IMG/VR virus record: IMGVR_UViG_3300012918_000001
Span: 1-43,393 of that record
Strand: one strand, 5' to 3'
DNA length: 43,393 nt
DNA from: a virus
The position numbers and the translations under genes are program-made. The stretch's first letter is position 1. Each line of letters opens with the position of its first letter. A model generated the notes under the pieces. That model did no database searches. It was not told where the DNA came from and saw nothing but the letters and a program-made list of their open reading frames with translations. Positions 1,074 through 43,393 of the stretch are shown in pieces.

Positions 1074-2006
1074 TCAGGGTGTAATGTCGGCCCCAGAGGT
1101 GTCAGCGCAGAGAATCTGCAACACCTTGCCTGGTTGCAGCCGCGTCGAGCCGAACATGACCGAGGTGAACAGATCCCACGGTTCCGAGGACAGGTCATTC
1201 CTGATGGATACCCGGTTCGTGATGTCCTTCCACATCCCGAGGTACATCCCCGATTTCACGAAGGTCAGCACTCCGCGGGTGGTTCCCACGGTTGTCTGCG
1301 GCAGGCGTTCCGACACTTCCACATCAAAGCCCAGAAAGCGCTTGACCTGGCCATCAACCAGCACCGGCCGATCATTAAATTCCGTGCTCACGACTTGCAC
1401 CTGGTTCAGCAAATCTGCTTCTTGCTGCGAGCCGATAACCACGCAAAGCGGGTCCATCTCCAAATCATTGTGGTAATGCCTGAAGATGCGCTTCGCCTCG
1501 ATCAGCTTCGCCACTGTCAATCCGTTGGCGGCCGAGGATCCGAAACTCGCGCTAATCTGGAAGCTCGTGGTGCTGAAGGTCTCGGAAGTGAGTGCGCTCG
1601 CGTCCTGGCCGAGCTGCGCCGTGCCTGTGGCGTTCGTGATGATCGAATCGTCCCAACCGCGGCCTACCGCATGGGCCGCGTTCTCGGTGTACTGCGATTT
1701 CGGATCGACGATGGTCTGCAACTCGTCGAACGAGTCGATCAACTGGTCGATCTCGCCCTCCTGCGGGAACACCCAGCGGCGCACGAACTGCGCGTCGGTG
1801 CGGTTCTTCGGCGTGTAGCGGCCCGAGGGTTGCTTCAGGCTGATGGCGCCGACTTGGTTGATCGGCGAAGCCATCTTGCCGACGTGGAAGCCTTCGCGGA
1901 CTTTTCCGCGGAGCTTCGAGCCAGTTTGCTGAAGCAGGAGCTCCAGATTCGTGCTGAACTGCGTCGTGTAGAGCGGAATCAGCCCAGGATCAGTTGACGC
2001 GGCCAT
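1074..2006 (-). CDS. Major capsid protein
   Basis: The 310-residue protein is preceded by AGAGAGG and ATG at 2006. It resembles the capsid proteins of BPP-1/BcepC6B-like podoviruses: N-terminus with LIPLYTTQFSTNLELLLQQ, then a mixed alpha/beta body with segments such as RRWVFPQEGEIDQLIDSFD and a beta-rich C-terminus. The fold is expected to be HK97-like, forming the icosahedral shell. It follows scaffold and portal in the usual head-gene order and has its own promoter (2177-2205). The TGA stop here shows that TGA is a normal stop codon in this phage. Confidence 0.85.
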   Translation of the reverse strand: MAASTDPGLIPLYTTQFSTNLELLLQQTGSKLRGKVREGFHVGKMASPINQVGAISLKQPSGRYTPKNRTDAQFVRRWVFPQEGEIDQLIDSFDELQTIVDPKSQYTENAAHAVGRGWDDSIITNATGTAQLGQDASALTSETFSTTSFQISASFGSSAANGLTVAKLIEAKRIFRHYHNDLEMDPLCVVIGSQQEADLLNQVQVVSTEFNDRPVLVDGQVKRFLGFDVEVSERLPQTTVGTTRGVLTFVKSGMYLGMWKDITNRVSIRNDLSSEPWDLFTSVMFGSTRLQPGKVLQILCADTSGADITP

Positions 2007-2954: not shown

Positions 2955-3101
2955 CTAGGCACTGCGCGCTTCCAATGCCGCGAGGATCGCGTAAATGTCG
3001 CTGATGGCACCATGCAGCGTTTGCTCCAGGGTCTTGCCGCCGGCCTCGTGCTCGTCGAGCTTCGCTTTCAACGCTTGTAGTCTCGCGCTTATTTCGTCCA
3101 T
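2955..3101 (-). CDS. Small coiled-coil protein after scaffold, 48 aa
   Basis: AGGGGA lies just before ATG 3101. The product begins MDEISARLQALKAKLDEHE, is wholly helical in appearance with heptad leucines, and ends in a TAG at 2957-2955. It starts 10 bases after the scaffold stop, so it is probably co-translated. An assembly-helper role is an inference. Confidence 0.6.
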   Translation of the reverse strand: MDEISARLQALKAKLDEHEAGGKTLEQTLHGAISDIYAILAALEARSA

Positions 3102-3111
3102 GATTTTTCCC

Positions 3112-3984
3112 CTAGGCTGCTTGTTGGCTCACGCCGGAAATGATGATTTCAAGGGCCTGCATCTCGCGGAACTTTGCCTTATCGCCGGCGAGGTAGGACT
3201 TGCGCCATTCGGCGTTTGTCATCAGGTCTTGCTTCTTGGCGATTGCTTCCTCGCGCGTCATCACGCCGCCTGACGGCCGTCCGGTGCTGGAGACGAATTT
3301 ATCTTCGCCGATCTTCGAGCCGATCATGCGAAACATCTCCATCACCTTGTCATACCCGATCACGCCCTCTAGCGCGGAGACCGTTTCCGGCGGCACTCCG
3401 AGCGCCGCGGCTGCGCGCTGCGCGATGAAAAGATTCGCCGCCTCATTCGGCCCCCAGTTCTTCTTCAGCGCTGCTTTCTGCTCCGTGAGCTTGGCGGTGC
3501 GCTCGGCAATCTCGGCGGTGTCGGCGGAATCCATGTACTTCGTCACTTCGCGCACCAGTGCGCTCGCTGTATCCTTGGGCAGATGCAGCCTGAAGGCGGC
3601 GGCGCGCATCGACTCAGCGAACGTATCGTCGATCGCCGTTCCATCGGTGAACTTGATGTCTGAGAAATCGTATTGCTTTGCATCGGCCGGTTTGCCCAGG
3701 CGTTGCCACACGGCGTTCCAGCCGGCTTCGTCGGCGGCATCCTTGGGAACGCGAAGCAGTTGCGCGGCCGGGGCACCGACGAACTTCTCGGCTTCTTTCC
3801 AGGCACGCGTTGCCTCGACAGCCACTTCGGCGGGCTGCTTCGTGTCCCAGCCCTTTGCTTTCCAGTGACCGACCACCGTTTCGTCGACGCCGGCGACGCC
3901 CTGATACCATGGCGCTTGCTGTTGTTGTTGGCCTTGTTGCTGCTGGCCTTGCTGTTGTCCCTGTTGCTGTTGGTCAGGCGGCAT
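3112..3984 (-). CDS. Scaffold / capsid assembly protein
   Basis: AAGGAG ends six bases before ATG 3984 and favours this start over 3990 or the longer frame to 4026. The 290-residue product begins with a glutamine/glycine-rich low-complexity tail (about residues 3-25), followed by a charged, mostly helical body with segments such as AERTAKLTEQKAALKKNWG. Composition, length and position directly before the capsid fit a scaffold that guides prohead assembly and is then lost. The CAA/CAG-rich tract encoding the tail (3903-3975) is prone to length change. Confidence 0.75.
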   Translation of the reverse strand: MPPDQQQQGQQQGQQQQGQQQQQAPWYQGVAGVDETVVGHWKAKGWDTKQPAEVAVEATRAWKEAEKFVGAPAAQLLRVPKDAADEAGWNAVWQRLGKPADAKQYDFSDIKFTDGTAIDDTFAESMRAAAFRLHLPKDTASALVREVTKYMDSADTAEIAERTAKLTEQKAALKKNWGPNEAANLFIAQRAAAALGVPPETVSALEGVIGYDKVMEMFRMIGSKIGEDKFVSSTGRPSGGVMTREEAIAKKQDLMTNAEWRKSYLAGDKAKFREMQALEIIISGVSQQAA

Positions 3985-4276
3985 CGTCATCTCCTTCGGG
4001 TTTGATCTGGATATTCCTGCCGGCATGCAGCGCGTAGAGCTGCTCGCTCGTCAGGTGCAGATGATCGGTCAAACGTAGGAACACTTCTCGGCGGCCTTCG
4101 AGAATCAACGTGCGGTCATGGTCGCCTGGAACCACGCACGTCTCAATCCCGCGGCAAAATTTTACGAGATCAGCGAGCACTTCGTTGCCGGCTGGTGAGC
4201 CGAAAGCGAGCTGGTAAGCGCGGCGCCGATGGCGCAGAAAGTCGAAAGCGCTGATTACGTTGTCGCGCACACTCAC
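3974..4276 (-). CDS. Bbp19-like phage protein, 100 aa
   Basis: GTG at 4276 follows GGAGGG and the stop of the endonuclease remnant. The pattern AFDFLRHRRRAYQLAFGSPAGNEVLADLVKFC followed by LEGRREVFLRLTDHL matches what I recall of the Bbp19 family, small proteins encoded between portal and scaffold in BPP-1-like phages. The biochemical role is not known to me. Its end overlaps the scaffold start. Confidence 0.65.
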   Translation of the reverse strand: MSVRDNVISAFDFLRHRRRAYQLAFGSPAGNEVLADLVKFCRGIETCVVPGDHDRTLILEGRREVFLRLTDHLHLTSEQLYALHAGRNIQIKPEGDDDAA

Positions 4277-4277
4277 G

Positions 4278-4721
4278 TTACCCTCCCTGCACTTGCTGCG
4301 CGCATTCTTCCACATATCGCGCCAAGGTCCGCATCAATTCCGGGCTGTCCTTGAGCAAACCAATGGCGGTATTGCACTGACTGCACAATAATCCGCGAAT
4401 CAGTCCTGTTTTGTGGTCATGGTCTACTGCAAGTTTTTTATGCTCGCCGCAGACCAAACAACGTCAACATTGCCGATCATACATTTCCTTGAAACCCACA
4501 GGAGATAAATCATAGACGCGCGCGCGCCTAAGAAGGGAATAATGCTCTGGATTGTCCTTCCTATGCTGCCTCCTGCGAGCATTGATCTCTTCGCGATGGG
4601 CGTGATGGTACTCCCGCGCCCGCTGCAGATGTCTTCCATAATCACGCTCACGTGCGCGCTTATTTGACGCAAGAATCTTCTCACGATTTTTAGCGTAATA
4701 TGCTTTTGTATAAGCACCCAC
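4278..4721 (-). pseudogene. Endonuclease VII-like HNH gene interrupted by an in-frame TGA
   Basis: GTG 4721 opens an 85-codon frame rich in Arg and Tyr (helical N-terminal region) that stops at TGA 4466-4464, right after MYDRQC. The same frame continues for 61 codons to TAA 4280-4278 with RCLVCGEHKKLAVDHDHKTG and RGLLCSQCN, the zinc CxxC pairs and the DHDH active-site motif of recombination endonuclease VII (HNH/treble-clef family). The stop lies exactly where Trp or Gly would be expected before the first CxxC. The N-terminal fragment alone lacks the active site. It is therefore a recent nonsense mutation, a sequencing error or a readthrough gene. It sits between portal and Bbp19-like genes, a typical site for a mobile HNH gene. 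Confidence 0.8.
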
Positions 4722-4723
4722 GA

Positions 4724-6499
4724 TTACGCGCCCTGCACCTGCTGAGCTAGCGGGGGTCCACCTTGCGCCGGAGCCTGCGCCGGCGAGGTCATGCCAGCCT
4801 TGAATTGCACTGCTGCGGCTTTTGCAAGAGCCGCTTGTGCTGGTGCGGCCTGGATCTGCTGTTGCTTTTGCAACGCTTCGGCGCGGCGCTGGCGCTTCGC
4901 CTTGATCTGCTCATCGCTTGCCGTCCACGAGGGCGGCGAGCCGCTGATGTCGGCGATCTCCGGCATTGCTACATCAAGATCCGCCCAATCCAAGTGGCTT
5001 GGATCCTGTGTGATGTTGATAAGCTCCTTGGAGAATTCCACAGCGCGCATGAAGCCGGAAGCGTTTTGCGAGCGCGCCGCTTTGGAGAGCGGCGACGTAT
5101 AGACAATGCTGTAGGCGCCATTTGCTTCTCGCAGGCGTGGGGGCATCGGATAATTCCTAAACGCGCCGATCGCCATTGCTACGTCTAGTTCACGATCGAT
5201 CATGTGCCCCAGGTCTTCTTCCTGATTACCTACGGTCGGAGCAAGCAAGATACCTTTCTGGTTCGTGATCTCGATAACCTGTGTCGCGGTCATCTGTGGC
5301 AGGTCTTTCAAGTTCAAGGCGAGTTGGAACAGGTTGACGAGGAAAGCGTCCTCGATCAGCGCCTTTTCCTCGGCCATCATCTCCTTCGAGATCTGAATGT
5401 TGCCAGTCGGTAGTACCTTGACCAGTTCCTTACCATCCGCAGTCACTCCGCCTTTATTCATCGCGCCGGGGCGAAGCGACATATCGACCACGCCATCGTC
5501 GGCGGTGAGAAGCACCGGGTCGGCCGCGCGGTGGCCCTGCTTGAGAAACGTGCGCTTCTCGGCGTTCAGCGTCTTCAACGCTGGTAGCACCATCATCGCC
5601 GGTGAGCGGCCGTAATCCTCCCCCGGCGCCGTGGCGTAGGTGGAAATGGCCGCCGGAAATTTACGGTATCCACCTTCGGAAAGCAGACACTTGCCGGGGA
5701 TCGATAGGTAGTAACTAGCCCACGGTTTGCCGCGCTCATCAAGCCTCTCAGGATCGTAATCCGAGCCTGACCGCGGGTAGACGCGGTGCAGAAAATCGTA
5801 TGGCTGCTCGCTTCCTTTCTCAAGTGCTGGCCGAAGCACTTCAGGAAATCGCGCGGGACCGAATTTCTGATACGCCTGCCGTGCGCTCAGCCGGAACCAT
5901 CGACAAAAGCCATCGACAATTCCCTGGTGATTTTTGCTGATAAAAAGCTCGCCGAGCGGAATGGACTTGTAGCGGATGCCGGCCTGATAGGGATGTTCGC
6001 TCGTGTCGAATTCGTCGATGAACATGCCCTTGGTCCCGAAGGCGCCAAGCTGCGTGTAGCAATCCGAAATCTGGCCAGCGAAGCCAGAATACTGCGCGTA
6101 GCGCAGCGCGAACAGGATCTTTGTTGCCTGTTCGAACCACAGGCGCGTTGCGCGATCCTTCATCACGTAATCGTCATTCGCGCGTAGGCCATGCCAGATC
6201 ATGTTCTTGGGCGTCAGGAGTGAATTGCAGATGGAGGAAAATTTCGAGAGCGCCATCATGCCGGTGGCGTCGATCTGCCGGTCAGTCTTTTTGGTCCCAG
6301 GCCAGTTGAAATTGCCGTACTCGAAAGTATTGCGCGATTGGGGAAGGATCAGCTCCGCGATCTCCTCCCAATGCGCCGCGAAGGTGTGCCTGTAGGTCTG
6401 CAGTTGCGCGAATTCGCGCAGGCTTTCGGCGACGATCTCCTCCTCGCGCGGGCTGGGTTGTCGAGCCAAGCCTGCTGGAGGAAGCTTATAATCAGCCAT
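4724..6499 (-). CDS. Portal (head-to-tail connector) protein
   Basis: The 591-residue protein matches the T7-like connector family (Head-tail_con): an N-terminal region with WEEIAELILPQ and FSSICNSLLTPKNMIWHGL, then DCYTQLGAFGTKGMFIDEF, and a long helical glutamine/alanine-rich C-terminus from about residue 530. It forms the dodecameric ring through which DNA enters and leaves and to which the tail attaches. Order terminase, portal, scaffold, capsid is as expected. Its 5' end overlaps the 66-residue gene by eight bases. Confidence 0.9.
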   Translation of the reverse strand: MADYKLPPAGLARQPSPREEEIVAESLREFAQLQTYRHTFAAHWEEIAELILPQSRNTFEYGNFNWPGTKKTDRQIDATGMMALSKFSSICNSLLTPKNMIWHGLRANDDYVMKDRATRLWFEQATKILFALRYAQYSGFAGQISDCYTQLGAFGTKGMFIDEFDTSEHPYQAGIRYKSIPLGELFISKNHQGIVDGFCRWFRLSARQAYQKFGPARFPEVLRPALEKGSEQPYDFLHRVYPRSGSDYDPERLDERGKPWASYYLSIPGKCLLSEGGYRKFPAAISTYATAPGEDYGRSPAMMVLPALKTLNAEKRTFLKQGHRAADPVLLTADDGVVDMSLRPGAMNKGGVTADGKELVKVLPTGNIQISKEMMAEEKALIEDAFLVNLFQLALNLKDLPQMTATQVIEITNQKGILLAPTVGNQEEDLGHMIDRELDVAMAIGAFRNYPMPPRLREANGAYSIVYTSPLSKAARSQNASGFMRAVEFSKELINITQDPSHLDWADLDVAMPEIADISGSPPSWTASDEQIKAKRQRRAEALQKQQQIQAAPAQAALAKAAAVQFKAGMTSPAQAPAQGGPPLAQQVQGA

Positions 6500-7090: not shown

Positions 7091-8530
7091 CTACTCCAAA
7101 CCGAAATATTCCTCATCTACGCCGGCAGCAATCGTGGGCTGTCGGCGCGAACCGGCGGGCTGTGGCATCGGGGCCATCAAGATCTTTGCCTCGCCGGCGC
7201 CGAGCATCATGTACTCGCCCGCCTCGACGACGTGCGAGTACATGTTCTTGTCGCGCTTGGCGCTCGTGATGCCTTCGAGCACGCCGCGAAGCTTGCGGTA
7301 CTTGAACCCGCCGGCCAAGCCCACGCGCGCGATCTTGCATTGTGGGTGGATCAGAAATCCAGGCTCCCCGTCGATCATCATGCGCATGTACTTCGCTGGC
7401 ACTTCGCGGCGCACGGTCGGGTCGTTGGTCGGTGCCGGCGCCGCCTTGATGCCGTGGGCGGCGAGGATGCGGAACACATCGCGCTCCTCGGTGTCGGCTG
7501 ACTGCATCACATCGCCGCTCGGATCCCCGGTGATACTCGCGATCGGTACGCCGGGATAGTGCGTGCGAAGGTGAATCCCCAGAAGCTCGGCAAAGCGCAC
7601 GATCCCGAAGGCATCGGTCACGACTTCCGAGTGCCAGCGCCAGGCGCCGTTGGGTTGCCGCCAGCCGATCATCGCCGCTGGCGTATTGCCGAAGTCAAGG
7701 CCGGCCCTAAGCTGTAGCGCTCCACGTGGAATATCAAAGGCTTTGCAGTGGGAACTATCGGAATACTCAGGGTAAACCGGCTTCCCGTCCAGCGCAAAGC
7801 CGTAGTTCGCCGCGAGGAATACGTTGATCCAGTCCTCGCTTGCCCCATGCGTCTTGTCCAAGTAATAGCCCGGCGGCAGGTTCGCGAGGTTCTCCGCGGC
7901 CGGATTCTCAACCCAGTGCCCGTCGACCTTCACCAGCCCTCCAGGCTGCTTGAAAAACGCCCAGCCCTCGGGGTGCTTATTTTCGGCAAACTCGTATAGC
8001 CAGTGCCCGGAGTAGGGCATGTTCGTGTCGCCGAACATTCCGTGCCAGGTCGGGCCGCCATCGTCCATGCGCGGGTAGCGGCCGCAGCGCCCGTAAATCA
8101 TCGTGATCAGCCCGAAGGGAATGTCCTTGCACTCGTTTAGCCACGCCCAAGTCAGTGGCATGCCGCGGACCTTGTTCACGCCGTCTGGATCATCCAGCCC
8201 GAGGAAATAGACATCGGCCTCGACGCGCGTGCCGTCCTCGAGTTTGAACCTCAGAGCATGATTCGCGGGGCTCGCCCAGTTGAACTCCCCGAGCGAGTGC
8301 TCGAAGCGGCCCTCGGTTAGCTCCAACCAGTCCCGCAGCGCGCTCGCCTCAAGATCCGTGAAATTCGTGCGTGTCACCAAGCCCGTCGACCGGCGCACGC
8401 CTTGGCCATCCGGTGCCTGCTCGACGATCAGCTTCAGCGCCTTCATCGCGCAGGTGAAGGTTTTACCGCTTCCCAGCGGCCCTTCGATGAACTGTCTTCG
8501 TTCTCGACTTCTAAAAAACGCTTCCAGCAC
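7091..8530 (-). CDS. terL: Terminase large subunit
   Basis: Walker A is at residues 16-24 (IEGPLGSGKTF) and the Walker B-like LNE at about 131-133 (WAWLNEC). The C-terminal nuclease half contains LRAGLDFGN, SITGDPSGD and a late conserved segment near SHVVEAGEYMMLG. The protein cuts concatemers and drives DNA through the portal using ATP. The GTG at 8530 leaves only 15 residues before Walker A, but the frame is open upstream to CTG at 8575, which overlaps the terS stop (CTGA). A CTG start adding 15 residues (LSVRRLEAAFATTGP) is likely. Confidence 0.88.
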   Translation of the reverse strand: MLEAFFRSRERRQFIEGPLGSGKTFTCAMKALKLIVEQAPDGQGVRRSTGLVTRTNFTDLEASALRDWLELTEGRFEHSLGEFNWASPANHALRFKLEDGTRVEADVYFLGLDDPDGVNKVRGMPLTWAWLNECKDIPFGLITMIYGRCGRYPRMDDGGPTWHGMFGDTNMPYSGHWLYEFAENKHPEGWAFFKQPGGLVKVDGHWVENPAAENLANLPPGYYLDKTHGASEDWINVFLAANYGFALDGKPVYPEYSDSSHCKAFDIPRGALQLRAGLDFGNTPAAMIGWRQPNGAWRWHSEVVTDAFGIVRFAELLGIHLRTHYPGVPIASITGDPSGDVMQSADTEERDVFRILAAHGIKAAPAPTNDPTVRREVPAKYMRMMIDGEPGFLIHPQCKIARVGLAGGFKYRKLRGVLEGITSAKRDKNMYSHVVEAGEYMMLGAGEAKILMAPMPQPAGSRRQPTIAAGVDEEYFGLE

Positions 8531-13360: not shown

Positions 13361-13521
13361 TGCGGCGCCCTGAAGCGCTTACCCCACCAGTGCGCTGGCC
13401 AGCGCGCCCGCGCAAGCCCGCGGTTCTCACGCGCTGCCGGCGTCTCCCGCAAATGCGTGTGGATGCGCTCCGGCGGCGTCGCGCTGTAGAGCCTATAAGC
13501 CGCGCGCTGTGCCGGCGTCAC
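13357..13521 (-). CDS. Small basic protein, 54 aa
   Basis: GTG 13521 overlaps the VRR-NUC stop, and the end overlaps the next GTG: a chain of coupled genes. The product begins MTPAQRAAYRLYSATPPERI and is rich in Arg and Trp. Small proteins like this often accompany VRR-NUC genes in phages. The function is unknown. Confidence 0.55.
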   Translation of the reverse strand: MTPAQRAAYRLYSATPPERIHTHLRETPAARENRGLARARWPAHWWGKRFRAPQ

Positions 13522-14030
13522 GGCGCCCGCTCGTCGCGCAGGTAATCCTCGATTGCCTTGATTGCGCTGACTGCATCCCAGTGAACACTCGCTTTGTAGC
13601 CGACCGATTCGAGATACGCGATGAAGGCAAATTGTTGGTCCGTCGGTTTGTTGTAGCCCACCTTGAGCTCGATCCACAGCCCAGAGTAAGCCCCCACTGG
13701 CTTGGCAAGTAGCAGATCCAGCGCTCCGCGGCGCACACCCTCGGCCTTGAGCCGTGAGCCGGTGATTGCATCGCGGGCGCCGCCGTTCGGTATGGCGAGC
13801 AGCGCGAATTCAGGGAGCGCGTACAGATTGTGAGTGTGCGCCCACCAACCGATGATCGATGCCTGGAGCTGATGCTCGCTCGCCGCCGGCACCCTCGACG
13901 TGCGTGCGCGCTTCGGCGCGATTACGTTTTGAAACTGGGGCTCGACTCCGGCCTGGGCAGCATAGAACCTGTCGGCTGCGTTAGCTTGTTCGAGTTGTTC
14001 ACGCCGGCTTAGAATCCTTCGGACCTTCAT
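13518..14030 (-). CDS. VRR-NUC domain nuclease
   Basis: AGGAGGT lies seven bases before ATG 14030, which is preferred over the longer frame to 14111. In the 170-residue protein the segments LLAIPNGGARD, LKAEGVRRGALDLLLAKP and LWIELKVG match the VRR-NUC (PD-(D/E)xK) fold: D in GALDLL, and E and K in IELK, are the catalytic set. Family members cut branched or modified DNA, so replication/recombination intermediates are likely substrates. It heads the minus-strand block leading to VapE. Confidence 0.85.
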   Translation of the reverse strand: MKVRRILSRREQLEQANAADRFYAAQAGVEPQFQNVIAPKRARTSRVPAASEHQLQASIIGWWAHTHNLYALPEFALLAIPNGGARDAITGSRLKAEGVRRGALDLLLAKPVGAYSGLWIELKVGYNKPTDQQFAFIAYLESVGYKASVHWDAVSAIKAIEDYLRDERAP

Positions 14031-14078
14031 CGCTGCACCTCCTAAGCTGCAAGCTTGTTTGACAATACTGGCAGAAAT

Positions 14079-14111
14079 GTGGTGAACTTGCAAATATGCC
14101 ACGTTCACCAC
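14079..14111. promoter_or_regulatory. Perfect inverted repeat flanking the start of the LexA-like gene
   Basis: GTGGTGAAC (14079-14087) and GTTCACCAC (14103-14111) are perfect complements with 15 bases between them. The gene's ATG (14096) lies in that gap. The arms contain GAAC and GTTC, the half-sites of Gram-positive LexA boxes, but the spacing is wider. An autoregulatory operator or a translation-blocking hairpin is the natural reading. Confidence 0.6.
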
Positions 14112-37228: not shown

Positions 37229-39901
37229 TCAGCGCTCTACTTGTTCCATGAAGCCAGCGATCGAGCACACCGCCGCCGGATAGGGCCGGCTGATCTGCCA
37301 GGCCATCATCGACTCGAAATTGTAGGAGTCTTCAAGGCTATCCCAGTACACCCCGCTGAACAGTTGGAGCGCAGTGTACGCCTTACCGGAGCCGGTCTTG
37401 AATTGCGCCGCGTGCAGCTTCGCAAAATCAGTGCCAAAGGAAATGCCCTGCGTACCAGAAAGCAGCGCCCCGAACTGGAAAATACGGCTTGGCTTGGCAA
37501 GCCCAGGCCCCGTCGGGCTGCGGCTTTGCTCCTGCGTGTCAGGGCGCACGAGCTGGCCCTGCGAGACATAGCTATAACCCACCATGCAGGGCACCGTGTA
37601 GACCGTGTTTGCCTTCTGGATCTGCGTCGCTAGCGTACCGTAGGCGCTTGTCGAAGTGATCGACGCGAGATAGCTTGAGGTGAGCGAGGCTGGATTGAGC
37701 GGATCTGAGTCTATCGGCACCGTCACCGAACCGTTTGCCACGGTGAAATCGCCAACATCTAGTCCGCCGACCACCACGGCGACGGTCTTCCCGTTGTGCC
37801 GCCACAAGCCGTTCAGCTTGAGGCTGTAGGCGAGCGCCGCATTGTAGGTGATGACTCCGCCACTTGGCACGATCCCGTCATCGACAAAGAAGCCGGACGT
37901 GATCGGCGTATTCACGTCGAACATGCTTTCCATCAGCGTGACATGGCGCACATTCATGGTCTGATCGTTCTCGACCATCGCAAGCGTATCGATCGTGCCA
38001 TCGGTGGACGGTCCTACGCAGATGCTTTCGACCGGATGCCCATTGACGAAATCGTGTCGGTGCCAGCCTACAAACTCCGGACCCTGCGAGGAGAACAGTG
38101 TCGAGCGCTTATAGGTGGCACCGATGAGTGAGCCATTGGCGCAGCGCGCCCAAATGACTGGCAGCAATTCCTGCTGGTAGCGGATCTCAGCTATGCCGGA
38201 GGTGCTCAGATGTTTCGCGGCCCGCGAGAGGTTCGGCGCCGTGTACTTCGCCGAGAATACATCCGAGAAGTATTCGAGGATTCGGCGGCCGAAGCGCTGC
38301 ACGAAGCAGACAGTTAGCTCGGAATGCACCGGCTCGATATTCGCGCAGCCGTAAGTCGTGACGCGGTGCGCCTGGATATTGGTCGCCGTGATGGGGCCGG
38401 TAGTAGGAGCGCTCACCACCCATTCCCCGGCGAGCGTGCCGCAGATGATGCCGGTATTTGACCCGATCATCCAATAGACCGGATTCACGTCGGAGGCATT
38501 GAAAACGTAGGCGATGGCGTTGTTGTCGGCAACCGTCCCATCAGCCGCCGTGGGCGTCATGTCGATCGTGCCGCCGCTGATCTTGTTGACCATGCTGCCA
38601 TCGACGCGGTTTGCAATCGCCCCGGAGAGCCACAGGCGCCCTTCGTAGTAGACCCCGCATGTCGGCCAGCCGCTTGTATCGCTGTAGGCCCCGAGGCGCC
38701 ATGTGACGATTGCGTTCGTATTCTTGAGCGTGGCGCCGTTGATCGTTGCGGTCACTACGGTCGTGCTCGTCCAGGCGGTAATCGTCGCCCAGGACCAGGT
38801 AGCGACTGCCGAGCTGATTGCCCAAAACGATACGAAGCTGTCAGGCTGATTGCCGGTGTTGGCGCCCTGCAGCGAAAGGAAATAGACGCCGTTGTACTTT
38901 ACCGAATCGCCCTTCGCATAGGTCGTGCCGATGGCCCAGGCGGGCGGCTCAGAGCGCAAACGGATCAGGCGCCCAACATCGGTTGTGGCGAATCCAGTGC
39001 CGCCGTTGATCGACGTGATTGTCGAAGCTGTCAGTATGACGGAGCCGCTCGTCCCGCTTGGCGTGATGGTCGAGCCGTCGATCGGCGGATCGAGGTATGG
39101 CCCGTCTACGAAAGTCGCCTTGTTCAGCGCGAAGGTGCCGAAGGCGCTGGCCGTGGGCAATGCCGTGACGTTAAGCGCATAGGGCGCGTAAGACGTGTGC
39201 AGCAGGAAACTCTGCGTCTCGGCTTGCACAGCTCGCAGCGATGACCACGCGCCAGCAGCGTAGACGGTGACTAGCTTCAACAGGCGCGCGATGACAGCGG
39301 TTCCGGCTGGCGCCGCGGCGGCACTCCAGCCGAGCGTGCTGCCGTCGATGGTCGCGCCGGTGATCGAGTCGGCTATCGAGCCATGCGTCGCGTCTACATT
39401 GGTGAACGTGAACACGCGATTGCAAAGGAGCGGCGTCTGGTTCGCCGCGGTGAGCGTGCCGAACAGGAATACCACCTGATCGCCAGTAGACCAGCCATGT
39501 GCGGTGGTGGTTTGCACCACAGCCGGATTCGCGGTAGAGATATTGAGGATCTGCTGATTATCGTTCGTCGTGACGAGCCGAAAGACGGTAGGGAGCGAGT
39601 TCCCGAGTCCGCCAGTCTGGCTCGCCACGCCGAACATGCGAAGAACGCTGTCGGTGAATTCTAGGATGTACGGAGCGCTTTTCTCGAAGTCGAATTCGAT
39701 GACGCGCCCTGGCTTGCCCTGGTAAGTCTCCGCAGCATAGCGCGTGCCAGAGCGCCGAATCCATGCGCCTTCTTCAATCGGAAATCCGTTACGGGACACA
39801 TTCATCGCCGTCCTGTAGGACGGTAAATCTAGGCGTCCTTGAGCGAATGCCGAATACTCGCCTCCAAGAAAACTGGACTGAACAAAAGAACTATGGGGCA
39901 T
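37229..39901 (-). CDS. Tail tubular protein B-like (nozzle), 890 aa
   Basis: The N-terminus SSFLGGEYSAFAQGRLDLPSYR and RSGTRYAAETYQG, then EFTDSVLRMFG, is the signature of podovirus tail nozzle proteins that form the tip of the short tail. At residues 320-363 it carries one carbohydrate-binding-like repeat (WAIGTTYAKGDSVKYNGVYF) very similar to copies in tail tube A. The C-terminal part (about 500-760) has the expected beta-propeller-like strands. Confidence 0.85.
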   Translation of the reverse strand: MPHSSFVQSSFLGGEYSAFAQGRLDLPSYRTAMNVSRNGFPIEEGAWIRRSGTRYAAETYQGKPGRVIEFDFEKSAPYILEFTDSVLRMFGVASQTGGLGNSLPTVFRLVTTNDNQQILNISTANPAVVQTTTAHGWSTGDQVVFLFGTLTAANQTPLLCNRVFTFTNVDATHGSIADSITGATIDGSTLGWSAAAAPAGTAVIARLLKLVTVYAAGAWSSLRAVQAETQSFLLHTSYAPYALNVTALPTASAFGTFALNKATFVDGPYLDPPIDGSTITPSGTSGSVILTASTITSINGGTGFATTDVGRLIRLRSEPPAWAIGTTYAKGDSVKYNGVYFLSLQGANTGNQPDSFVSFWAISSAVATWSWATITAWTSTTVVTATINGATLKNTNAIVTWRLGAYSDTSGWPTCGVYYEGRLWLSGAIANRVDGSMVNKISGGTIDMTPTAADGTVADNNAIAYVFNASDVNPVYWMIGSNTGIICGTLAGEWVVSAPTTGPITATNIQAHRVTTYGCANIEPVHSELTVCFVQRFGRRILEYFSDVFSAKYTAPNLSRAAKHLSTSGIAEIRYQQELLPVIWARCANGSLIGATYKRSTLFSSQGPEFVGWHRHDFVNGHPVESICVGPSTDGTIDTLAMVENDQTMNVRHVTLMESMFDVNTPITSGFFVDDGIVPSGGVITYNAALAYSLKLNGLWRHNGKTVAVVVGGLDVGDFTVANGSVTVPIDSDPLNPASLTSSYLASITSTSAYGTLATQIQKANTVYTVPCMVGYSYVSQGQLVRPDTQEQSRSPTGPGLAKPSRIFQFGALLSGTQGISFGTDFAKLHAAQFKTGSGKAYTALQLFSGVYWDSLEDSYNFESMMAWQISRPYPAAVCSIAGFMEQVER

Positions 39902-39913
39902 TGAAGATGCCCT

Positions 39914-41470
39914 TCAAATGCGGCAAACCAGGTAGTCGTCCTCCTCGGCTTCCACTGGGCCGACCTCGATCCCGTTCACAGTCCTTGCAGAGCCAATCGC
40001 CTGATTGTATGCGAGCAGAATTCCCTGGCGCTTTGCAGTAGATTGCGTAAGGCGCTCGACCACCTCATAGGCGATGCGCGCGGCCAAGCCCTCGCAGAAC
40101 ATGTCATCGAAAGTGCTGACATCGGTGACATCGGCAACGAAGCGAAGCAGGATCGGAAACGTCTCGCGCGTCACAAGGTAGTCGCCCTGCAGCGTCCAGT
40201 CGGAATACATGAGGCCGCTCGGTGCGCCGAGAAAGGATGTCGAGCCGGCCTTCGGATCCTGTGGCGCGCGGCGCAGAAAGCTCGCCGGCAGCCGGTAGAC
40301 ATTGCGCGCGGGACTTTGCACTACCGGGCCGTAGGACAGCGGCGAGGCGAGCTGCAGGCCACCCAAGGCAACGGGAATCTGCAGCCACAGATCGCTCGCG
40401 GTGCCGAATGGGTTAGTCGCGGTCCACGGTGCTAGGACGCCGGTATTCGTCCACAGGCCGATCGTCTTCGTCGGGTCGTTGCCGAGATTGCCGCTGCCAA
40501 TCGACGTGTAGATCGTGCCATCGGAACCGGCGACCTTGTTACCCGCAGCGTAGGTTGTACCTACCAGCCACGGCGCGGGCGAGAGCGACGGATCGTTGTT
40601 CAGGTTGAAGGCGATCAGGCTCGCGTAGTAAGTACCTGCAGCCTGCGCGGACCAGAACGAAGCATTGGGCGGCGTGTTGCCGGTGTTGCTGTTGACTGTG
40701 GAAACATAGTTCACGCCAGCGAGCGTAACGAAGTTCCCGATGCTGTAGGTGGTCGCGGCGTTGTAGTACGGCGGCGCAATCGTGGCCGAGACTGGTGCCC
40801 ACTTCGCAGGCGAGATATCCGGCTGATTGCCGACATTGGCGGCGGCAAACGAGACGTAGGCAATGCCGTTGTAGATGATCGTATTGCCTGCCGCATAGGT
40901 CGTGCCGATCGCCCAAGGCGAGTAGAACAGCACCACCTGATCCATCGCGTACTGCGTAGTCGAGATCCACAGACTCGGCACGCGCGGATCCTGGCTATTC
41001 TTGCTGACCAGCGACAGGTACACAAGCGCGGTGCCATCGCCGGGAGTCTCGTACACCAGCTCGCCGGAGAAGTAAGCGGTCGTCCCGCTCATATCGTAGG
41101 GTTGCACGGTGAGCGGGCCGCAGTATTGCTCCCAGGCGCTCGAATTGCCAGGCGCGTTATTCAGATTATCCGGCGCTCGCCCTTGCCATAGAACGCCTGC
41201 GGCATCCTGTACGATGGCGCCGACTGCGTAAGTCGTGGTACTCGCCCACAGCGTCGGCTTGAGCAGCATCGTGGTCGCATCGATCGGTCGCAGCGCCACG
41301 TTGCGCGTTGCGAAACGCCAAGTGTTGCGGCGCAGCTCGGCGCGGCGCACCTTGTCGTAGGTGAACGAAATTTCCCCAGCAGCAAGTGTGTCTTCCGTGA
41401 AATCCGCGATGCGCGTCACTCCGCAGTGCTGGCACGCGCGATTGCCCACATCAACGGGGGTGGCGAACAT
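39914..41470 (-). CDS. Tail tubular protein A-like (gatekeeper) with CBM5/12-like insertions, 518 aa
   Basis: Residues 1-73 and about 370-518 look like the podovirus gatekeeper that sits under the portal (IADFTEDTLAAGEISFTYDK; RIAYEVVERLTQSTAKRQGI). Between them are about five repeats at 74-113, 131-169 (divergent), 185-225, 235-274 and 300-341. Each follows WxxGTTYxxGNxVxxNGxxYxSxxxxNxGNxPxxxxxW, the chitin/carbohydrate-binding CBM5/12 pattern. A gatekeeper is usually about 200 residues, so more than half of this protein is inserted. The repeats may project from the tail and touch cell-surface glycans. Confidence 0.8.
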   Translation of the reverse strand: MFATPVDVGNRACQHCGVTRIADFTEDTLAAGEISFTYDKVRRAELRRNTWRFATRNVALRPIDATTMLLKPTLWASTTTYAVGAIVQDAAGVLWQGRAPDNLNNAPGNSSAWEQYCGPLTVQPYDMSGTTAYFSGELVYETPGDGTALVYLSLVSKNSQDPRVPSLWISTTQYAMDQVVLFYSPWAIGTTYAAGNTIIYNGIAYVSFAAANVGNQPDISPAKWAPVSATIAPPYYNAATTYSIGNFVTLAGVNYVSTVNSNTGNTPPNASFWSAQAAGTYYASLIAFNLNNDPSLSPAPWLVGTTYAAGNKVAGSDGTIYTSIGSGNLGNDPTKTIGLWTNTGVLAPWTATNPFGTASDLWLQIPVALGGLQLASPLSYGPVVQSPARNVYRLPASFLRRAPQDPKAGSTSFLGAPSGLMYSDWTLQGDYLVTRETFPILLRFVADVTDVSTFDDMFCEGLAARIAYEVVERLTQSTAKRQGILLAYNQAIGSARTVNGIEVGPVEAEEDDYLVCRI

Positions 41471-43254: not shown

Positions 43255-43393
43255 CTAGAGCGGCGGCATTCCAGCGCCGGCCGCTCCTTGTGGCACACCA
43301 TTGGCGAGGATGTACAGCTCGAAGGTGCGAAGCGCGAGCAGCACGTCCTCTTTGGTCGTGCCCTTGCCGGTGTCGATGCGAAGTTCGATGTCG
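43255..43393 (-). CDS. Junction-crossing small protein, 3' part
   Basis: This is the C-terminal part of the 66-residue gene that starts at 185. Bases 43271-43393 repeat 1-123, and only 43255-43270 is new sequence, coding the last residues and TAG (43257-43255). Its intact frame across the join is the main proof that the ends belong together. Confidence 0.7.
   Translation of the reverse strand, partial: DIELRIDTGKGTTKEDVLLALRTFELYILANGVPQGAAGAGMPPL
43271..43393. repeat. Terminal direct repeat, right copy
   Basis: Exact copy of bases 1-123; see the left copy for interpretation. One of the two should be removed when the circular genome is drawn. Confidence 0.95.

Follow-up and report, generated by a model that had tools for sequence, protein, structure and literature searches.

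A portal-adjacent endonuclease VII-type frame with a single nonsense codon: a probable homing gene in early decay in a BcepC6B/BPP-1-like podovirus

The DHHRN family of homing endonucleases was defined on F-CphI of cyanophage S-PM2, which the accessible portions of the source describe as a C-terminal nuclease of the form CX2C-DHDH-R-CX2C-N with a separate N-terminal part, its free-standing gene lying next to a conserved gene of the phage (PMC6083498). Across the wider endonuclease VII (EndoVII) fold, the same portions report that most members of the endonuclease clade, to which Hpy99I belongs, have a C-terminal motif, whereas most resolvases have an N-terminal one (PMC6083498). In T4-like phages, the seg and mob genes, of HNH or GIY-YIG type, are cassettes between conserved genes and often overlap the upstream gene (PMC2988022, as far as its available text goes). 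In mitochondria, endonuclease ORFs supply a foreign C terminus, the native one remaining behind, and the accessible sections of the source describe fungal mitochondrial mORFs, of LAGLIDADG or GIY-YIG type, by which the C termini of atp6, atp9, cox2 and nad3 are replaced, with Allomyces atp6 as an example (PMC3630166).

Here we analyze a virus record from IMG/VR (IMGVR_UViG_3300012918_000001), whose 43,393 bases, the whole stretch of DNA examined, we call the window, and in which an EndoVII-type frame between the portal gene and a Bbp19-like gene is split by one in-frame TGA. With a probability of roughly 0.7, we read this frame as a free-standing homing gene of the DHHRN/F-CphI kind at the portal 3' end of BcepC6B/BPP-1-like podoviruses, caught in early decay. 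The domain layout, free-standing state and position beside a conserved gene are those of F-CphI; unlike F-CphI as described in the available text, the window's predicted target is portal rather than psbA, no intron is seen, the activity is a prediction, and the gene carries a repeat of the host-gene end as well as a stop codon (PMC6083498). The frame is also a cassette between conserved genes, as are the T4-like seg and mob genes, for which, in contrast, the accessible text describes no copied host-gene tail (PMC2988022).

An exact 123-nt direct repeat at positions 1-123 and 43271-43393 indicates that the record is probably complete, the pattern being one that a closed genome, or a circularly permuted one, would show. 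Pfam and PHROG matches define a right-to-left operon of terminase, portal, EndoVII frame, Bbp19-like gene and, further on, capsid (Table 1). This is the gene order of the podoviruses BcepC6B and BPP-1, and in the BcepC6B annotation the portal is 'similar to Bbp21' and the head protein 'similar to Bbp17'; the portals of the window and BcepC6B are only 30% identical. Elsewhere, the window encodes a tyrosine integrase (Pfam PF00589, 16360-17292, +), so the phage may be temperate. In the tail genes at 39914-41470 and 37229-39901 (-), proteins of another record (L222) align as two overlapping pieces, suggesting an internal duplication.

Table 1. Positions of the features discussed; coordinates refer to the window unless another record is named.
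Feature	Coordinates	Strand	Remarks
Terminase	7091-8530		PHROG terminase; operon runs right-to-left
Portal (head-tail connector)	4724..6499	-	Pfam PF12236, E 1.6e-89; 3' end is the insertion site
EndoVII-type reading frame	4278..4721	-	147 codons plus TAA (codons 4281-4721); GTG start
N-terminal part	4467..4721	-	85 residues, basic; sole product if TGA terminates translation
In-frame TGA	4464..4466	-	codon 86 of 147; two codons ahead of first zinc cysteine
Nuclease part	4281..4463	-	CLVC, DHDH, R, CSQC and N all kept
Hairpin, 13 bp	4420..4456	-	starts 7 nt past TGA; tested as readthrough/Sec signal, unsupported
Direct repeat, copy A	4715..4747	-	portal 3' end and EndoVII gene start
Direct repeat, copy B	4270..4301	-	EndoVII 3' end (AQQVQGG stop) and next gene's start
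Bbp19-like gene	3974..4276	-	Pfam PF25181; adjoins portal in relatives without insert
Capsid gene	1074-2006		in the right-to-left operon
Nuclease genes at portal 3' end, other records	L105:6734-7252; L102:6306-6974; L118:5764-6432		each ends in displaced native portal tail

The EndoVII frame opens 2 nt past the portal stop codon and reads VGAYTK...MYDRQC*RCLVCGEHKKLAVDHDHKTGLIRGLLCSQCN...CAQQVQGG*, with one internal stop. It had been proposed from the letters alone that one frame continues intact on both sides of this TGA, and the comparison agrees. The intact relative L105 aligns through the TGA without a break (146 columns, 48.6% identity, E 1e-39), which argues that the single frame is real on both sides. 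The read-through protein matches Pfam Endonuclease_7 at E 2.9e-20 and the 61 residues after the TGA match it by themselves at E 1.8e-18, whereas the first 85 residues alone have no Pfam or PHROG match. The two CxxC pairs and the DHDH motif expected in the second half are there, joined by the R and N of the family signature. An alternative frame at 4424-4717 (97 aa) has no PHROG match.

At the column aligned with the TGA, all 80 IMG/VR homologues have a sense codon. This is the comparison with related phages for which the original prediction had called; the codon encodes Gly (33), Asn (18), Tyr (16), His (6), Ser (3), Arg (2), Asp (1) or Trp (1); the only stops reported among these homologues are in three copies of one gene (L006-L008), ahead of its own start. 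The residue before the TGA, Cys 85, is itself unusual, as this column is Asp, Asn or Gly in 63 of the 80. A search of IMG/VR for strain variants, using exact flanks with codon 86 left open, returned 0 stretches, and neither a strain-level relative of the window nor an intact copy of the same gene was found there, the nearest portal (L121) being 81% identical. We conclude that the record does contain the nonsense codon, which most likely marks an early step of decay, or else is an error, with no change of the genetic code.

The error account holds that the TGA arose in sequencing or assembly, or is a minority variant picked by the assembler, and that the gene is intact in the population. It would fit the survival of every motif past the TGA and the finding that the large conserved genes compared, aligned in their coding frames, are free of internal stops (portal, 583 columns; terminase, 492; capsid, 310). 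Other stop-bearing matches in the window belong to the complementary strand or to an overlapping frame, or are of low identity; we read these, for example 235-1371 and 2231-2425, as shadow frames. However, the contig shows no sign of being error-rich, and Cys 85 and codon 86 are both atypical, which is more than a single base error would give. We consider such an error unlikely, though a chance worth keeping in mind.

A recoded genome in which TGA is sense was rejected, since TGA is an ordinary stop that ends seven of the nine large genes read in frame; the original prediction had judged whole-genome recoding unlikely on similar grounds. True readthrough, which it had left as an option, fared less well. 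Programmed or opportunistic UGA readthrough, by a Trp tRNA or by selenocysteine insertion, would yield a low level of nuclease and so keep a toxic enzyme scarce. A TGA followed by C is a weak stop context, Trp occupies the column in one of the 80 relatives, the nuclease half is intact, and the hairpin behind the TGA is more stable than dinucleotide shuffles (z -3.3). Nevertheless, 10.5% of sequences recoded according to the phage's codon usage are at least as stable, as are 3.5% of those made by swapping synonymous codons within the gene and 7.2% of the 5,679 in-frame windows taken from this phage (the codon usage and in-frame windows include one gene cut out of frame), so that the coding sequence largely explains the structure. 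There is no Rfam match, ARAGORN found no phage tRNA gene in the window, and the first loop bases of the hairpin are CA; bacterial SECIS elements need a G among the first loop bases. The stop is also unconserved among the 80 homologues. A programmed readthrough or selenocysteine gene is thus unsupported, and we regard readthrough of any kind as very improbable.

The family assignment of the nuclease is clear, with 72.4 bits to the EndoVII fold (PF02945) for the read-through protein and 66.6 bits for the part after the TGA, against a curated cut-off of 23.6. Judged by the residue criteria of PMC6083498, the DHHRN residues are present as the DHDH motif, the R of LIRG and the N of CSQCN, with CLVC and CSQC as zinc pairs. 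The motif is C-terminal (residues 67-138 of 147) and the best solved relative is Hpy99I, both features of the endonuclease clade as set out in the accessible part of that paper (PMC6083498). A normal phage Holliday-junction resolvase that happens to be broken is therefore a doubtful alternative, despite the PHROG and Pfam names and despite podoviral or prophage members of the resolvase clade, some beside portal genes, that the same text reports (PMC6083498). T4 endonuclease VII (gp49; E 1.6e-4 to the window nuclease) shares the catalytic motif and zinc site, but is a resolvase with its motif at the N terminus, unlike the window protein (PMC6083498, available text). In addition, nearly all relatives lack EndoVII at this site, and the window has another resolvase-like gene: the 197-aa protein of 13518-14111 (-), which matches the Holliday junction resolvase family phrog_5702 (3.8e-11), is a candidate second resolvase separate from the EndoVII frame. 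The best reading of the sequence evidence is a mobile homing-type nuclease of the DHHRN type, predicted to cut sequence-specifically.

The distribution of the gene is patchy. Portal loci came mainly from three scans and numbered 82 distinct ones including the window, of which 77 have a Bbp19-like gene behind the portal; one locus was kept among identical portal ends, and L118 was counted with its twin L102. A scan of genome contigs with the portal gave no match, and a second contig scan with alignment A1 found five, at 23-57% identity. EndoVII lies between portal and Bbp19-like gene in three of the 77 loci (the window, L002 and L105). The eight nearest relatives (67-81% portal identity) have no insert, with portal-to-Bbp19 gaps of -21 to +52 nt, and in nine related records searched whole, EndoVII occurs only in that of L105. 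A scan with alignment A2 for further portal-site EndoVII genes gave 72 loci; among those of them that were checked, only L196/L233, L234/L002 and L224/L225, which are second fetches of L105, L002 and L102/L118, adjoin this portal and a Bbp19-like gene. The GC content of the EndoVII gene is also lower (50.6% versus 57.9%; GC3 0.46-0.57 versus 0.64-0.79). The missing gene in relatives could also reflect loss.

Other cargo is found at the same site. L102 and its twin L118 carry a different nuclease-like gene there (PHROG endonuclease VII match, 3e-7; no Pfam match), which to our eye looks HNH-like. Two different nuclease genes, that of L105 and that of L102/L118, thus occupy one position in the portal 3' end. 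In 31 of the 77 loci, portal and Bbp19-like gene stand 120 nt or more apart, mostly with unrelated small genes between them, showing that the gap also accepts other cargo; it is probably a hot spot that collects small accessory genes of diverse, unrelated kinds. EndoVII genes also occur immediately upstream of the portal, in L091 (4568-4960) and, beside a distant portal, in L022 and L025 (both 3016-3411), indicating that the portal surroundings take EndoVII on both sides.

The nuclease and portal trees tell different histories. In an EndoVII tree of 75 rows, the window, L105 (row L221) and L002 (row L082) cluster with an SH-aLRT of 91, a value from a quick method and below the tool's star. In a portal tree of 71 rows, 3 of 74 portals having been left out as too short, the three carriers are scattered among non-carriers on starred branches, and three changes are needed. 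The window falls in a starred set of eight whose other seven members are empty, L105 groups with L099 and L102, and L002 groups with L177. A single-site gene lineage scattered across distant phages is the pattern that homing predicts. Of the features expected of a free-standing homing gene, the locus has empty sites in relatives and an EndoVII tree that departs from the portal tree, both trees being quick ones; an uninterrupted frame it lacks, owing to the TGA, and it is thus at best a broken member.

Traces at the portal end suggest how such a gene may have entered. The EndoVII protein of L105 and the nuclease of L102 end in AQAAQVKAGMVAPGGPGG.QQQPQG, about 26 residues that resemble the portal tails of the empty relatives L088 and L099 more than those of their own portals; the BLOSUM scores for L105 are 110 and 94 against 49. 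The portals of L102 and L105 are 71-93% identical to that of L099 and drop to 57 and 56% over the last 150 nt, while the empty L088 keeps 83% to L099 and L102 and L105 share 75% over the same length. Together, the tail matches and diverged portal ends argue that the old tail was displaced behind the nuclease and that the portal received another. Both loci thus have the native portal end behind the endonuclease and a different end on the portal. This resembles the fungal mORFs, in which an endonuclease gene has likewise entered the 3' portion of a conserved gene, with a foreign end fused to that gene and the native end behind the endonuclease; in the part of the source available, those are LAGLIDADG or GIY-YIG elements of mitochondria, whereas here the nuclease is EndoVII or another type and the recipient a phage portal, and the window, by comparison, retains only a short repeat (PMC3630166).

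In the window, the repeat spans stop and next start, with 27 of 33 columns identical. It ranks first among 210 gene-end pairs (20 versus 12 for the runner-up), and its score is reached by 2 of 20,000 random pairs. Whereas the EndoVII protein ends in AQQVQGG, the window portal ends in AQQVQGA, and a QQVQGA or QQLQGA ending is common to many portal relatives. Over its last 120 nt the window portal is 54-59% identical to six empty relatives, which are 66-78% identical among themselves; one inner block of the window portal is likewise low (58-66%), so that the divergent end is not unique. The possible signs of a tail swap in the window are thus a short, imperfect repeat and a divergent portal end, and the tail match of L002 is a weak hint. 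In a crude scan for flanking repeats at 71 EndoVII loci, the window came first (15; next 13), a value equal to its own random maximum (15). In a literature search confined to open access we recognized no phage endonuclease that had duplicated the tail of its host gene, and the tail-swap signature seems new for phages.

The two halves of the frame bear on how far decay has gone. Identity in the nuclease half is 26/52 between the window and L105, 25/52 between the window and L002, and 35/52 between L105 and L002; in the N-terminal half the corresponding values are 40/85, 32/85 and 39/89. In a leave-one-out profile ranking, with L003 left out of 75, the window's nuclease half scores 88.8 bits (rank 60 of 74, median 96.5), and the intact L105 copy (L221) scores 83.1. 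The nuclease half is thus without clear decay as far as these comparisons go, with a hint of relaxation, possibly from before the TGA, or of earlier branching. That the split is itself adaptive, with the 85-residue part alone as a DNA-binding product, strikes us as extremely improbable: this part is intact, basic and about as conserved with L105 as L105 is with L002, but it has no domain match, the C-terminal part has no start codon that would preserve the first Cys, and the case is single.

The suggestion of a mobile element at the start of decay is borne out: the gene is a patchy insertion of lower GC beside the portal, its downstream motifs are intact and it shows no further damage. Neither the portal-tail repeat nor the site-specific family formed part of that suggestion. 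Broken copies are in themselves nothing unusual, since HNH remnants are common in phages; in Skunavirus, 56 of 268 HNH genes appeared incomplete, according to the portion of that study available (PMC12724721).

Under the homing reading, the basic N-terminal part would bind DNA and the zinc-bearing C-terminal part would act as the nuclease, cutting the 3' end of portal in a co-infecting phage without the gene. Repair off the carrier would then copy the nuclease gene plus a stretch of portal end into the recipient, whose portal would gain a working new tail while the old one ended up behind the nuclease gene. L105 and L102 may preserve the trace of this displacement, and the 33-nt direct repeat may be its counterpart in the window. 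The window copy would have lost the entire nuclease through the nonsense codon ahead of the zinc site, and, with all motifs intact past the TGA, this looks like the first decay step after invasion. Later recombination between the flanking repeats could excise the gene cleanly. We see an even chance that the fuller picture holds, in which podoviruses of this group host homing elements of several nuclease types that invade the portal 3' end with a substitute tail, the window copy having freshly become nuclease-less between excision repeats.

In summary, an apparent recoding oddity becomes a case on which the cycle of invasion, decay and loss of phage homing genes can be tested. Replacement of the host-gene tail offers a possible route by which a nuclease gene may enter an essential structural gene and leave it unbroken. 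If this is true, selfish genes partly shape the tails of phage portal proteins.
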